NCBI GenBank assembly: GCA_015062445.1
Contig: SUUQ01000001.1
Location: 124,001 to 188,000, forward strand
DNA: 64,000 nt
Reading direction: 5' to 3'
Source: Alphaproteobacteria bacterium
GTDB taxonomy: Bacteria; Pseudomonadota; Alphaproteobacteria; Rs-D84
The notes beneath the pieces are model-generated. The model did not search any database and had not been told where the DNA came from. It worked only from the letters and a program-made list of their open reading frames with translations. Shown piece after piece: positions 3,092-24,532 of the stretch. Made by a program: the position numbers and the translations under genes. Positions within the stretch are counted from its first letter, which is position 1; each line of letters begins with the position of its first letter.

Positions 3092-4264
3092 CTACATTTC
3101 AGTTTGCGCACGATGAACCTTACCATCAAAAAGCATACCTTTCATTTCAATGTATTTTTTATAGCATGGGCATTCTTTTACTGCCTCGTATGCTTTGGCG
3201 ATTGCTTTTTCTTTTGTTGGTTCTGCTGTGATTTTAGTTTTTAGTTGTTTGCCTTGGATATGTGTATTTAGGGCTGCACCGTCTAATGTTGGAATATAGT
3301 ATGGCGATGTGTCCGATGATAAACGACCGTTGCCGGTTGATATTTCTTGTTTTAATACCTCTGTTGTATCCAATGGGCTTGCTTGTTTAGTGTCGATTTT
3401 GCAATGTTTGTCGCAACCATCACATGGTGGAACGGATTCTTTTTTATAGTATGGGCATTTTTTTACAATTTTGCGTGCTGTTGCGATTGTTGCATCTTTG
3501 CCGCTTATCATCAAATCCACTTCTTCTTTAAGCCGTTTGCCATTTATATCAAGGTGGATTACTTCGCCATTGACGGTGACTGCATAGTAATGTGTCCCTG
3601 AACGTGACAGCTGGTATTTTGCTGACAGTACGCATTTTTTCATACAACCACGACAGATTGTTTCCTCAGTTTCTTTTTTAACAATTGCTGTGATTTTTTC
3701 TTTGGGGTATTTTTGCTCCAGAACCTCCCTTGCTGCATTCAAAATCATTGATACATCACCATGATTATGATTGCCGTTATAAGCATCCTCAAACCGTGTT
3801 TGCTTGGCATAATTCATTGCCCAGCCGACAATCATTTCTATTTGTTTCAAATTCAGTACAGACAACAGGCACAATAAATCTTGTTTTGTTGGAAAAGATT
3901 CTGTAAGCGAGGCACTGCGCATTTTTCCATTTAATGAAAAGTTCATATAATCACCTACTGGTTTGTTCCAAGGTTCCCGAGTCTGGGTGTATGTGCACAA
4001 ATCTGGACAATGTGGATTCGATATCATATTAACCCCGAACAGAGAATTATCATAAACCACACCAGTTAGAACCTTGTGTTTCCATATTGGACCGGCATAA
4101 TCGGGGCAGATGATTGTTGTTTCTGGGTCTGGTATATATAGATTGTTATTTGGAACTCGTTTGATTGCGTTTTTTATTGCGCCTGCAATCAAATCATCTG
4201 GTGTTTCTGTCCAGTATGGTTTAAAGAAATTTATAACTTCTTGTATTTTATTGCTTTGCGTCAT
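3092..4264 (-). CDS. Two-module CxGCxKxC cysteine protein, function unknown
   Basis: A 390-residue protein with no signal peptide. The first half (about 1-195) has no recognisable domain. Two tandem modules follow: CRGCMKKC (about 203-210) to CPYYKKE (about 270), and CDGCDKHC (about 277-284) to CPCYKKY (about 367). Each has three clustered Cys, a central segment with YY[AI].T..G..[IL] and a Gly-Lys-x-Leu-Lys turn, then a basic helix ending in KxCPxYKK. The pattern suggests a metal-binding or compact disulphide domain, but I know of no such named family. It is flanked by a single-module paralogue and a relic copy. Its leader is shared with that relic. Confidence 0.65.
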   Translation of the reverse strand: MTQSNKIQEVINFFKPYWTETPDDLIAGAIKNAIKRVPNNNLYIPDPETTIICPDYAGPIWKHKVLTGVVYDNSLFGVNMISNPHCPDLCTYTQTREPWNKPVGDYMNFSLNGKMRSASLTESFPTKQDLLCLLSVLNLKQIEMIVGWAMNYAKQTRFEDAYNGNHNHGDVSMILNAAREVLEQKYPKEKITAIVKKETEETICRGCMKKCVLSAKYQLSRSGTHYYAVTVNGEVIHLDINGKRLKEEVDLMISGKDATIATARKIVKKCPYYKKESVPPCDGCDKHCKIDTKQASPLDTTEVLKQEISTGNGRLSSDTSPYYIPTLDGAALNTHIQGKQLKTKITAEPTKEKAIAKAYEAVKECPCYKKYIEMKGMLFDGKVHRAQTEM

Positions 4265-4509
4265 TTTTTTACTCTGTTTTTTCTGAATTTTAGAATTTTT
4301 TATTTTTTGAACATGCGTAATGCTCTTCTTTTAGTAAAGAAAATATCACAAATGTCATATTTGTCAATGCTTTTTTGCAAAATATGGTGTTTGTGTATTT
4401 AATCTGATTAACGCTTATGGACAATTTTACATATTCTAGACATAGAAAATTGGTGTGCTGTGGAAAGTGGCGGTTTTCTGCGGGGTGCGTGTGGCGGCTT
4501 TTTTTATTT
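4265..4509. other. AT-rich intergenic region with remnants of the 36-bp repeat
   Basis: There is no supported gene. The region holds the leader of the 390-residue gene and a diverged copy of the 36-bp repeat (about 4430-4483, with TTTACATATTCTAGACATAG and GTGGCGG). A T-rich run follows and leads into R1 copy b. Confidence 0.5.
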
Positions 4510-4644
4510 GTATTATGACCTGGGGGCTGTGGTTCACACTTCGTTAAAACTTCGTGCGACAAGGCAAGCCACGGGATGACACCACTGTATTAAAACTTTG
4601 TGGTGCAGGCAAAGGGGAAATAAACACCACCCAATCGGGCGGTG
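4510..4644. repeat. R1 palindromic repeat, long form (copy b)
   Basis: The same start (GTATTATGACCTGG) and end (CACCCAATCGGGCGGTG) as the short form, but the central hairpin carries an insertion with TTCACACTTCGTTAAAAC and a second TTAAAACTTTGTGGTGC segment. It is the only R1 copy that does not abut a stop codon, which may mean that the gene once next to it is gone. Confidence 0.75.
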
Positions 4645-4703
4645 TATTGTATTTTGTGTTTATGGTTTTATATTAAATCTGTGTATAAATCACTACAAAA
4701 TTA

Positions 4704-4732
4704 TTGACATAATGAATTTTTTGTATTACTGT
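4704..4732 (+). promoter_or_regulatory. Promoter of the small lipoprotein gene
   Basis: A perfect TTGACA at 4704-4709 and TACTGT at 4727-4732 are spaced by 17 bases. A ribosome site (AAGGGG) precedes the start at 4765. Confidence 0.55.
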
Positions 4733-4764
4733 TAAGTTGACAAAATATATATAAGGGGTGTTAA

Positions 4765-5136
4765 ATGAAAAAATCTTATGCTAAAATACTTACATTGGTG
4801 TCATTGTTTGCATTAAGCGCATGTCATTCTGACGAAGGAAATATCACAGGTGTATCTACACCAGAAGCATACCCAACAAACAATATTGACACAATGAGAG
4901 TTATAGGGGTATTTAATGTAACCCAAGGTTATTATGCAACATGGGACCATTATAAATTTGTGAAATGTGTTGATAAGAACAATAAAACTATAGAATTTTC
5001 TTTTGATGTACATAAGGAACCTAAGAATGATGTCACTTATACAGAACGTGGCGATACGATTCTTATGAATGGTAATATGTTTGTAAAAAATCTTACACAG
5101 GAAAGAATGCGTTCAGAATTTGTAAATGGTCGATAA
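4765..5136 (+). CDS. Small lipoprotein of unknown function
   Basis: A 123-residue protein with a lipoprotein signal ending LFALSAC, Cys at residue 20. The mature part is short and polar with predicted beta strands (GVFNVTQGYYATWDHYKFVKC) and one more Cys. No family is recognised. It has its own promoter and a terminator, so it is a single-gene unit in the accessory AT-rich region. Confidence 0.7.
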   Translation: MKKSYAKILTLVSLFALSACHSDEGNITGVSTPEAYPTNNIDTMRVIGVFNVTQGYYATWDHYKFVKCVDKNNKTIEFSFDVHKEPKNDVTYTERGDTILMNGNMFVKNLTQERMRSEFVNGR

Positions 5137-5149
5137 AGGTATTAGATTA

Positions 5150-5179
5150 CAAAAAATGACCCAACGGGTCATTTTTTTT
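5150..5179 (+). terminator. Terminator after the small lipoprotein gene
   Basis: AAAAAATGACCC-AAC-GGGTCATTTTTTTT forms a short stem followed by a T run. R1 copy c begins at the last T. Confidence 0.8.
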
Positions 5180-5313
5180 GTATTATGACCTGGGGTCCTT
5201 GGTTCACACTTCGTTAAAACTTCGTGCGACAAGGCAAGCCACGGGATGACACCACTGTATTAAAACTTTGTGGTGCGGGCAAAGGGGAAATAAACACCGC
5301 CCATCCGGGCGGT
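5180..5313. repeat. R1 palindromic repeat, long form (copy c)
   Basis: Nearly identical to copy b, including both inner insertions. Its right hairpin (CCGCCCATCCGGGCGG) ends six bases from the stop of the minus-strand gene at 5319. Confidence 0.8.
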
Positions 5314-5318
5314 TGTTT

Positions 5319-6338
5319 TTATAGTGTTTTGCGATCAGTGCGTCTTTTTTGTGTTATCTGTCGTTTTTTTAAATTTCTTGCTGCAATTCCCATACCAATA
5401 ACCGCACCTGTTCCTAGAATAAACGTAGCAGCATTTGATTTATCGCTACTTTCGTTGACATCTTCCAACACATAATCCATAACAACATCTTTAACAAGTT
5501 CACATTCAACCCGTACCCTTTTCCCATTTGCAACTTTCAATGTTATTGTACGTGGTTTTTTTGCTTTTGCTAAATTATTTTCTATTTTAGAAAAATTCCA
5601 TTCACAGAAATTATTTTTATCCTTTTTTATTTTTCCATTTTTATGAACAACGATGTCTTCCAAAAGCAAGTTGTAACAACCTTCACATCGCAAATCAAGC
5701 AAATCTGTTATTTTTATTTTATCTTCCAACAAGGCGGCAAAGAAATAACATCTATTTAAGACACCCTTTTGTTCGCGCCATCCCGTCAGGGTTTTTGACA
5801 ATTCCGCCCCTGTTTTACCAGAATTCAAATACTTTAAATATTTAGATTTTTGAAAATTTGTCCCCCCGATACAATATCTAAACATACAGGTTGCAATCAT
5901 TGTTTTTTCATCCATCGGAACTTTAACATATTTTTCTATATCTTTTAAGATTTCAAACGTCATATATCGTCCCATATATTTATCACGATTTTCAACCGAA
6001 GGAACCTTTGTATTTTTAGTAACTCTTTTATATGTCCCGTCTGCGTTATACAAAACAGTCAAACCACCACCTGTTGTCCAAGCTTTGCCACAAAAATAAA
6101 CATAAGCATAATCATTTTCTACAAAGATCAATGACATTTTAACTTTACTGCGACAGTTTTCGAATAATTCCTTGTTATGTTTTGATGCGCGAGATGTATT
6201 AAATTTTACATTTTCTATTTTATCTCTTTTTTTATCATCTTGGTCATCCTTGTTTTTTACAAACAAATGCGTACCAAACAACAATCCACTAACCAACGCA
6301 CTTCCAATCAAGAATTTTTTTACTTTATTTTTTTGCAT
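5319..6338 (-). CDS. Membrane-anchored GH24-like lysozyme domain protein
   Basis: A 339-residue protein from the ATG at 6338, chosen because an N-terminal hydrophobic anchor (FLIGSALVSGLLFGTHLFV) follows; the longer reading starts at a less likely codon. Residues about 70-220 resemble phage-type lysozyme (glycoside hydrolase 24). FVENDYAYVYFC-GKAWTTGGG matches the usual F-E-G...AY...C...WT-I-G-Y-G block, with the candidate catalytic Glu kept; F.Y.IGG.NF and L..LN.G...W resemble the substrate-binding part; KGVLNR matches the RR-containing helix. A second hydrophobic segment (FILGTGAVIGMGIAA) sits near the basic C-terminus. It would act on peptidoglycan if active, but the Thr-Gly-Gly-Gly variant makes activity uncertain. 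There are no phage genes nearby. Confidence 0.55.
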   Translation of the reverse strand: MQKNKVKKFLIGSALVSGLLFGTHLFVKNKDDQDDKKRDKIENVKFNTSRASKHNKELFENCRSKVKMSLIFVENDYAYVYFCGKAWTTGGGLTVLYNADGTYKRVTKNTKVPSVENRDKYMGRYMTFEILKDIEKYVKVPMDEKTMIATCMFRYCIGGTNFQKSKYLKYLNSGKTGAELSKTLTGWREQKGVLNRCYFFAALLEDKIKITDLLDLRCEGCYNLLLEDIVVHKNGKIKKDKNNFCEWNFSKIENNLAKAKKPRTITLKVANGKRVRVECELVKDVVMDYVLEDVNESSDKSNAATFILGTGAVIGMGIAARNLKKRQITQKRRTDRKTL

Positions 6339-22047: not shown

Positions 22048-22075
22048 GAATTGTCGGGGATTTTTATTGTGGTTT
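22048..22075. terminator. Bidirectional terminator between tsaE and ftsA-rpe
   Basis: ATCCCCGA-ATTG-TCGGGGAT is flanked by T-rich sequence on one side and A-rich on the other, so it can serve both convergent transcripts. It overlaps the last codons region of the epimerase gene only at its edge. Confidence 0.8.
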
Positions 22076-23842
22076 ATTGGGCAGTAAACTTTGTACAGCC
22101 AATGGAAAATCAGGTGCATGTGCCAAGTACGACCCAGATACCAACATGTCTGCACCAGCCGCCCAACATAACTGGGCAGTTTTATCGTTTATGCCACCGT
22201 CAACAGATATTTTGAACTGCAGACCATATTGTTTGCGTGTTGCAGATAGTATAGATATCTTTTTCAATGCAGATTGGTCAAATTCTTGGCCGGCGGCGCC
22301 AGGTGTAACAGACATTATCATTATTTCATCAATTTCTGATAATATCGGTTTTAGTATATTCACAGACGATTTTGGATGCAGGGCAATACCTGCACGGCGA
22401 CCCGCACTGCGGACATTCTTTATCGCATTTATCAGTCCGGATGTGTTGGTGGACATTATGATTGTGTCTGCACCGGCGGCAACTGCTTCGGCTGCCCAGA
22501 CAGATGGACTCTCGGTCATTAAATGTACGTGCAGGTGGGCATCCGTGTGGGAACGGATGATGGATAGTTCTTCGATGCTGCCACGGATTTGGTCGACGTA
22601 CAGACCATCCATTATGTCAACATGTATCATTGATATGTTCCCGGAATTAAACAGGTTGTATGTTTCATGACGACGCATGTCAAAACACAATGTGCTGGGT
22701 AATATCGGGATTTGACGTACAGGTGTGCGTTGCGGACGGCGAAAAATACGCGTCAGCCAGCCCGTGCGCCGTGACCAACGATCGTGACGTGCCAAGTAAT
22801 TTTTGCAGTTCGATTCCTGGGCAGACCAGATGTAATCCGACAATGCTCGTACGGTTGCGTCTGGTGGCATAACAGTGGTTACAACAGCAAATGCATTTTC
22901 AATGAAATCACGCAGTCCATCTGTTTCTGCACCACCACCAGTTAATATTATTTGTGTGGGTTTAGATTTGGTAAATGATGATGAACATGAATCTTTTAAT
23001 TGTGAAATTATTTCAACAAAAATAGGTATCACAATGTCGTGTACATCACTGCGGGAAAAACCATAGTCACGGTCTGCCGGTACCAGGTGATCTGTACTTT
23101 TCGGGGTCAGTGTCGATACAGAACGTTTTATGCGGTCGGCAGATTCAGAATCCAGTTCCAGCTTTGTACACAGGGCATTGGTGATGTCTGTGCCGCCAAG
23201 CGGAATTTTGGTGTGCCAAACAGGACCACGATCTGTCCAGATGGATGCGCTGGTGTACTGGGCGCCAAAGTCGATGAACATGATGGATTGTTTTTTCTTT
23301 CTGAATACACCGTTGTGAATAAACTGGGGGTCAAATATCGCATCAGGTTGTATGTGGGCAGAACGCAGGACACTGTTGATGTCGTTCATGCCGTCGTATG
23401 AATAATATATCGCACCAAAAACCGAGACCAACTGGCGATCAATCTGACCAATTGGGGTTGGAATGTTGCGTGATGCAGTCGTGTCATATCGTAATGGTAC
23501 AATGTGCATCGGAAAGTATCCGTCCGGTGGGGTCAGACCTGATAACTGATTGCGGATGTCGGTGGTTGTTATTTTATGCTCGTTTGGCCAGACGGTATGT
23601 TTGGCCTTCATCTGAAAGATAGATGGGCCAATGTTACCTGTGATATAGGCACTGTCAAAATGCGCCCCCAGTTGACGTTCCAGTTCGTCAACAACACTTT
23701 TTATCGCATATGTGGTATCTGGACTGTCGATGGTAAAAAATGCAGACTGATCCATGCGGGCACCACGTATGCGGTGGGCCAAACCACGTACACCATAGGT
23801 GCCAATGTCTAAACATAAAAAACAAGAATCAAATAAATTCAT
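22064..23842 (-). CDS. FtsA - ribulose-phosphate 3-epimerase fusion protein
   Basis: A single 592-residue frame. Residues 1-365 are an FtsA-like actin fold: phosphate-1 LDIGTYGVRGLA (11-22), phosphate-2 FIDFGAQYTSASIW (189-202) and adenosine motif IILTGGGAETDGL (298-310). A basic amphipathic stretch, RTGWLTRIFRRPQR (359-372), matches the membrane-targeting helix that normally ends FtsA. From about 378 a full epimerase barrel follows: LPSTLCFD (381-388), HVDIMDG (407-413), HLM (440-442), SVTPGAAGQEF (511-521) and VDGGI (547-551). All four expected metal and catalytic positions (H407, D409, H440, D548) are kept. FtsA tethers FtsZ to the membrane; Rpe interconverts ribulose- and xylulose-5-phosphate. 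The gene follows ftsQ by nine bases. No ftsZ is visible downstream. Confidence 0.9.
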   Translation of the reverse strand: MNLFDSCFLCLDIGTYGVRGLAHRIRGARMDQSAFFTIDSPDTTYAIKSVVDELERQLGAHFDSAYITGNIGPSIFQMKAKHTVWPNEHKITTTDIRNQLSGLTPPDGYFPMHIVPLRYDTTASRNIPTPIGQIDRQLVSVFGAIYYSYDGMNDINSVLRSAHIQPDAIFDPQFIHNGVFRKKKQSIMFIDFGAQYTSASIWTDRGPVWHTKIPLGGTDITNALCTKLELDSESADRIKRSVSTLTPKSTDHLVPADRDYGFSRSDVHDIVIPIFVEIISQLKDSCSSSFTKSKPTQIILTGGGAETDGLRDFIENAFAVVTTVMPPDATVRALSDYIWSAQESNCKNYLARHDRWSRRTGWLTRIFRRPQRTPVRQIPILPSTLCFDMRRHETYNLFNSGNISMIHVDIMDGLYVDQIRGSIEELSIIRSHTDAHLHVHLMTESPSVWAAEAVAAGADTIIMSTNTSGLINAIKNVRSAGRRAGIALHPKSSVNILKPILSEIDEIMIMSVTPGAAGQEFDQSALKKISILSATRKQYGLQFKISVDGGINDKTAQLCWAAGADMLVSGSYLAHAPDFPLAVQSLLPNKPQ

Positions 23843-23851
23843 TTTTTATAC

Positions 23852-24532
23852 TTATTTTACCAAAATTCGGGCATCATCACGCATGTCAATGACTTTGATG
23901 GATTTGGATAAAAGGTTGTGGTTCTTGTTTAATACAAGAATTGTGCCAATGGCCGTTTCTGGGGATTGTTCAGGTAACATAATTGTTATCCCACCAGTCG
24001 TATGTAAATCCCAACGTCGATTCTCGATCCATTCCAGATAATCAACCTGGCCCAGTAATTTTTGGGATGCGGTGGTTATCCCAGCTATATCAGATGGTAC
24101 AGGACCACGAAAAACAATGTCGCTGGTGGTGCGTGCCCCAACAGGACGGTTTACAATTGTGCCGTCCGCCGATAATGGAAAGTAGTATTCACCATCTGTC
24201 CACAGTGCAACAGAACGGTGCATCGATACATGGATGGACAGGTTGCCGTTGGGTATGCGACGGACCGCAGATTTGCGTACCCCAGGTACAGAACCAATCC
24301 GAGCATTTATTTCATCCAGGTCAATAGAATAGGAGGTTGTGCCAGGGGGTAATAAGACCGCCGATGCAATGCCAGATAAATCAGAATTTGCAGTGTCTGA
24401 TGTTATCGATATGTTATGCACATAGGATACATCACTGCGTCCCAGACCAGTCATAACAATGCGCACAGAAAAATATATCGCCAGTATTATGGCAATAATA
24501 AAACACAGCCAAAACCATATCGTACGTTTCAT
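23852..24532 (-). CDS. ftsQ: Cell division protein FtsQ
   Basis: A 226-residue protein with one N-terminal membrane segment (TIWFWLCFIIAIILAIYFSV) and a periplasmic part. SYSIDLDEINARIGSVPGVRKSAVRRIPNGNLSIHV is the POTRA-like block of FtsQ, followed by the FtsQ/DivIB beta domain (VALWTDGEYYFPLSADGTIV). FtsQ recruits FtsL-FtsB to the divisome. It is shorter than many relatives. It lies directly upstream of the ftsA-type gene, the normal ftsQ-ftsA order of the division cluster, but the genes before it are Lol genes rather than murC, murB or ddl. Confidence 0.88.
   Translation of the reverse strand: MKRTIWFWLCFIIAIILAIYFSVRIVMTGLGRSDVSYVHNISITSDTANSDLSGIASAVLLPPGTTSYSIDLDEINARIGSVPGVRKSAVRRIPNGNLSIHVSMHRSVALWTDGEYYFPLSADGTIVNRPVGARTTSDIVFRGPVPSDIAGITTASQKLLGQVDYLEWIENRRWDLHTTGGITIMLPEQSPETAIGTILVLNKNHNLLSKSIKVIDMRDDARILVK

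Follow-up and report, generated by a model that had tools for sequence, protein, structure and literature searches.

A conserved FtsA-ribulose-phosphate 3-epimerase fusion protein in a family of gut Alphaproteobacteria that lacks FtsZ

Can a cell division protein and an enzyme of central carbon metabolism be made as a single polypeptide, and what would such a protein do? The question is raised by a gene in a 64,000-nucleotide stretch of alphaproteobacterial DNA (hereafter the window; contig SUUQ01000001.1, positions 124,001 to 188,000), in which a sequence-only reading had proposed that one uninterrupted 592-codon frame joins FtsA to a complete ribulose-phosphate 3-epimerase (Rpe). We observed the frame as proposed: the open reading frame at 22064-23842 runs from ATG to stop without interruption (592 codons plus the stop), and it lies on the minus strand, a detail absent from the earlier reading. 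The encoded 592-residue protein consists, in order, of an FtsA actin fold, a basic amphipathic helix and a complete Rpe. Structure prediction, also proposed in that reading, yielded two confident domains corresponding to FtsA and Rpe (AlphaFold2 with 71 sequences; mean pLDDT 92), and the whole-chain pTM of 0.62 suggests that their relative arrangement is not fixed. The claim that both folds are intact is further supported by Pfam, profile comparison and Foldseek. The fusion is single copy in its source genome (1.05 Mb, 98% complete). No separate second ftsA or rpe is present there, a point that had been left to be checked: MreB is the only other FtsA-family match, and no second rpe or epimerase was found.

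We observed the same join throughout the family to which the window belongs. A search of 201 genomes of the order, 183 from this family (Candidatus Enterousia and its relatives) and 18 from other families, matched the fusion in 175 of the 183 family genomes, bearing out the suggestion that other genomes be searched for it. Eight family genomes gave no match: G111, which is 95% complete, and seven that fall below 90% completeness. The named records are Candidatus Enterousia species and genomes from rumen, caecal and faecal metagenomes, and the deep genera g22 and g26 carry the fusion too (frames of 555-617 aa). All listed fusion frames are open. Partial matches lie at contig ends (G101, G112, G153 and G184), and the G167 fusion gives way to unrelated sequence close to where its short contig stops, in what looks like a chimeric contig end. 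Overall, the fusion has been kept in ~180 species of a dozen or more genera, and no reversal was observed. Chance and assembly error can be excluded, since the same uninterrupted join recurs in far more than a hundred independent genomes. The window does come from a metagenome-assembled genome, but the probability that misassembly or a frameshift merged two genes artefactually is negligible, and this is ruled out by the same open frame in more than 170 independently assembled genomes, including the closed chromosome OX097180.1 (G060; 1,001,484 bp), where the fusion is uninterrupted. These results confirm a conserved gene for a genuine two-domain protein, and they rule out both misassembly and a recent chance event as its origin.

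Two full copies of the fusion, 68% and 67% identical to that of the window, are present in G026 (L002 and L053), a genome with 4% contamination that is probably a mixed bin. A second, weaker fusion match in G125, G135, G144, G147, G151, G175 and G177 could be a stand-alone epimerase-like gene or a paralogue. When 386 alphaproteobacterial genomes were searched with the concatenated FtsA and Rpe of a sister family, no other FtsA-Rpe join was present among the matches listed. Among the papers searched, we found none that brings together FtsA, ribulose-phosphate 3-epimerase and fusion.

FtsA is the actin-like membrane tether of FtsZ. An FtsA actin-fold domain occupies residues 1-342 of the fusion protein (22817-23842, minus strand), with ATP motifs at D12/G14, D191/G193 and G302-G304. 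Pfam detects an FtsA/PilM-type actin domain at residues 182-333 (E=1e-7/4e-9), and with the single sequence PilM scores slightly above FtsA. A PilM identity for this half is ruled out by profile, NCBIfam and fold comparisons. When a profile built from 71 homologues was matched against solved structures, residues 6-338 aligned with FtsA (best 7q6f, E=4.7e-21), with weaker matches to PilM (3e-11) and MreB (1e-9); NCBIfam places TIGR01174 ftsA (8e-20) ahead of pilM (2.8e-11), at 71 bits against an ftsA equivalog cut-off of 176 bits, which is thus missed; and the top Foldseek matches are all FtsA (best 1e4g, E=1.6e-24). The half is divergent, being ~50 residues shorter than usual and ~15% identical to solved FtsAs, and it has changed more rapidly than the Rpe half, with a median identity to the window protein of 52% versus 71%. 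It is under purifying selection (median dN/dS ~0.12). Among the 113 distinct fusion proteins in which motifs and start codons were counted, G14 and G302 are present in all 113 and D12 and D191 in 109 each, the catalytic aspartate D191 having been lost in a few deep members. Loss of the FtsZ-docking arginine was considered as a possible sign of FtsZ loss; this residue is missing also from FtsZ-positive relatives of family f4. The gene had been said to follow ftsQ as ftsA should, and this holds in the window, where ftsQ (23852-24532, minus strand; FtsQ_DivIB_C, E=1.6e-7) lies directly upstream in the same orientation, and in 77 of the 78 relatives tested, with a median gap of 8 bases. Thus, the fusion resembles FtsA (TIGR01174/PF14450) in its fold, its ATP motifs, its place after ftsQ and the basic amphipathic helix that follows the actin fold. 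It differs in that its FtsA half is shortened, its helix is internal rather than C-terminal, the chain runs on into an enzyme, and the cell is without FtsZ.

The helix at the junction spans residues 343-369 (22736-22816, minus strand) and stands in place of the C-terminal membrane-targeting helix of FtsA. The motif GWLTRIFRR is indeed found at residues 361-369, and the earlier identification of a basic amphipathic stretch at this position agrees with the predicted helix (residues 343-367 in the AlphaFold2 model), with the median hydrophobic moment of 0.62, which is within the range of the FtsA C-termini of relatives (0.4-0.77), and with the median net charge of +11. From these sequence properties and the model, we infer that the helix binds membrane. 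The FtsA half very probably folds and binds both ATP and, through its now internal helix, the membrane. Beyond the helix lies a short, low-confidence basic linker at residues 370-377 (22712-22735, minus strand), which contains no internal start codon in the window gene. AlphaFold2 assigns residues 370-374 a pLDDT below 50, and the linker is weakly conserved (22% median identity). We considered whether an internal start might allow Rpe to be translated separately and rejected this: none of the 113 proteins has a Shine-Dalgarno-preceded start codon within residues 357-379, and 78 of them have no linker start codon at all, making separate translation unlikely. Post-translational cleavage at the linker, which would give separate halves, is possible.

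The remainder of the protein, residues 378-588 (22079-22711, minus strand), is a complete ribulose-phosphate 3-epimerase domain. Pfam detects Rpe at residues 383-573 (E=1.8e-42), the 71-homologue profile aligns residues 378-586 with the solved Rpe 2fli (E=3e-61), and Foldseek superimposes the model on the same structure with a TM score of 0.91 and an rmsd of 1.5. A model for D-allulose-6-phosphate epimerase scores below the Rpe model. The metal and catalytic residues H407, D409, H440 and D548 occupy the positions first assigned to them, and they are retained in 113, 113, 113 and 112 of the 113 distinct proteins, respectively. The Rpe half is under purifying selection (median dN/dS ~0.08). It is like Rpe (PF00834/TIGR01163) in its complete TIM barrel, its four metal and catalytic residues and its 33% identity to 2fli, and unlike it in having no start of its own, in being fixed to FtsA and in being the sole copy in the genome. 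The Rpe half is the cell's only Rpe and very probably catalytically active. Enterousia has a non-oxidative pentose phosphate pathway, with transaldolase missing in most genomes (PMC12306168).

A likely source of the fusion is found in the sister families, where ftsA and rpe are neighboring genes that have not been joined. In families f3 and f6 the two genes touch or overlap. The ftsA/rpe boundary falls at 5226/5229 in L039, and in L041 rpe (3641-4225) and ftsA (4228-5505) lie on the minus strand. In L038 (family f2), ftsA and rpe overlap by 14 bases (5341/5328). Family f4 (L040, L043 and L044) has an ABC-transporter-like open reading frame of ~590-600 aa between ftsA and rpe. In a phylogenetic tree, the fused Rpe domains all group in a single clade with 100/100 support and a long stem. 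Most simply, ftsA and rpe were joined a single time, in the common ancestor of the Enterousia family, and the fusion was inherited vertically thereafter. The joining would have been in frame, between adjacent and often overlapping ftsA and rpe genes of an ftsQ-ftsA-rpe operon.

The sequence-only reading had described the enzyme as tied to the FtsZ anchor. This part of the proposal is not borne out, as searches of all 183 genomes of the family turned up no FtsZ. The Pfam models FtsZ_C (PF12327) and Tubulin/FtsZ (PF00091) found nothing in 35 genomes of the genus bar a chance fragment (E=0.012), and they match 17 of the 18 genomes from the order's other families, at E values as low as 1e-50. An alignment of 13 FtsZ proteins, drawn from relatives in the order and from other Alphaproteobacteria, was searched against the 201 genomes at E<=1; it produced just two chance fragments in the family (E 0.045 and 0.06) and 17 strong matches, all outside the family. 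At least 90% completeness is reached by 115 of the 183 family genomes, and the set includes a closed 1.0-Mb chromosome. Taken as no detectable homologue in three independent searches, the whole family is without FtsZ. The fusion protein therefore cannot tie the enzyme to an FtsZ ring; with no FtsZ to bind, it can be an FtsA orthologue and not an FtsZ anchor. Given the loss of FtsZ, cells of this family must divide in an unusual way. Among the division genes inventoried, FtsQ, FtsL, FtsI, FtsW and MreB are retained in the genome of the window; FtsW is found with MurG and MraY, FtsL with FtsI, and RodA with PBP2.

Two observations were made elsewhere in the order. G038 (family f5; 93% complete) represents a second lineage of the order in which FtsZ is not detectable. 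It also gave no FtsA-Rpe match, while two SEDS proteins and four transpeptidases are present in its genome. In FtsZ-positive sister families, ftsZ lies within or beside a cluster of phage structural genes (L211 3304-13816 in G045:C11, L212 8172-9665 in G037:C22 and L217 1011-6060 in G036:C30), among them major head, tail, head-tail adaptor and a terminase large subunit in two pieces. This cluster may be a domesticated prophage or a locus resembling a gene transfer agent, and may represent a route by which ftsZ was lost.

Like the FtsZ-less Chlamydiota, Planctomycetota and Wolbachia of supergroup J, the window's genome keeps FtsW/FtsI-type or elongasome wall enzymes together with MreB. Unlike them, it keeps FtsA, in fused form, while those lineages as a rule are without it. 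Both ftsZ and ftsA are scored as absent from Chlamydia and Wolbachia J in a comparison table of obligate intracellular bacteria (0 for both; PMC10591338), and ftsZ, ftsB and ftsA were lost together in the PVC superphylum, with few exceptions (PMC12283558). Retention of FtsA after loss of FtsZ is thus unusual, and we found no description of it in the literature. The Enterousia genome paper reports RodA, MreB and MrdA and contains no occurrence of FtsZ (PMC12306168); the FtsZ-less status of these genomes is new relative to that paper.

Working from metagenome-assembled genomes and homology, we infer a division role, membrane binding and epimerase activity for the fusion. We consider it probable that this two-domain FtsA-Rpe of single origin is a membrane-bound FtsA adaptor that serves a Z-ring-free septum and carries an epimerase. 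The FtsA half would act as an actin-like adaptor at the membrane, gathering septal wall-synthesis proteins without a Z-ring, and the epimerase would be carried along with it, attached and active. We suggest an adaptor of this kind because the family has lost FtsZ while FtsQ, FtsL, FtsI, FtsW and MreB have been kept in the window's genome. With FtsZ gone, the division role of the FtsA half is drawn only from homology and ftsQ synteny. Our confidences in this explanation and in those below overlap, as they differ on whether the link between the halves matters, and they are not meant to sum to one.

There is a substantial chance, approaching an even one, that the link itself has no function and arose by neutral streamlining, in which the boundary between overlapping operon neighbors was lost during genome reduction and the two halves work independently. 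The adjacency of ftsA and rpe in sister families, the genome size of ~1 Mb and the flexible, poorly conserved linker are all consistent with this. The lack of any reversal across so many species and genera argues against it, as does retention of the basic amphipathic junction, although FtsA's own membrane binding would preserve the latter as well. Neutral joining accounts for the origin of the fusion equally as well as coupling of sugar flux to division does, and the persistence of the join fits either a useful link or the mere lack of a way back. Since the data do not separate these explanations, we rate coupling as improbable and leave neutral streamlining a substantial likelihood.

Metabolic coupling thus seems unlikely, whether as control of FtsA by the levels of the epimerase's substrate or product, or as placement of the enzyme at the septum by FtsA so that it supplies wall or nucleotide precursors. 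The fixed physical link between a division protein and the only Rpe speaks for it, as does the precedent of UgtP, OpgH, KidO and GdhZ, metabolic enzymes that regulate division. Those enzymes resemble the fusion in linking central metabolism to a division protein. However, they are separate proteins that act on FtsZ, whereas the link here is covalent, is made to FtsA and exists in a cell without FtsZ. Moreover, we saw no sign of allosteric contact: the linker is modeled with low confidence and the relative placement of the domains is undefined.

It is just as unlikely that the FtsA half has left cell division altogether and is now a membrane tether or oligomerization module for the epimerase. 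FtsZ loss, the faster evolution of this half and the missing catalytic aspartate in deep members point in that direction, but the nearly invariant ftsQ synteny, the nucleotide motifs kept in most members and the retention of FtsW, FtsI and FtsL, which FtsA normally serves, argue against it. Rpe is often dimeric or hexameric, and the structures 2fli and 7u5y were deposited with 12 and 6 chains. We raise, as a speculation with quite a small chance of being correct, that Rpe dimers or hexamers draw FtsA together at the membrane into a ring or patch, which took over the clustering role of the Z-ring after FtsZ was lost. If so, FtsA-Rpe clusters would recruit FtsQ, FtsL, FtsI and FtsW, and the resulting divisome would dispense with the Z-ring, have an enzyme as its scaffold and be open to control by metabolism.

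Bacteria without FtsZ are rare, and in the present case an entire family with tiny genomes, common in the gut, lacks FtsZ and keeps FtsA covalently bound to an enzyme of central carbon metabolism. The family is thus a natural experiment on the capabilities of FtsA in cells that lack FtsZ, and on whether division machinery can incorporate a metabolic enzyme.
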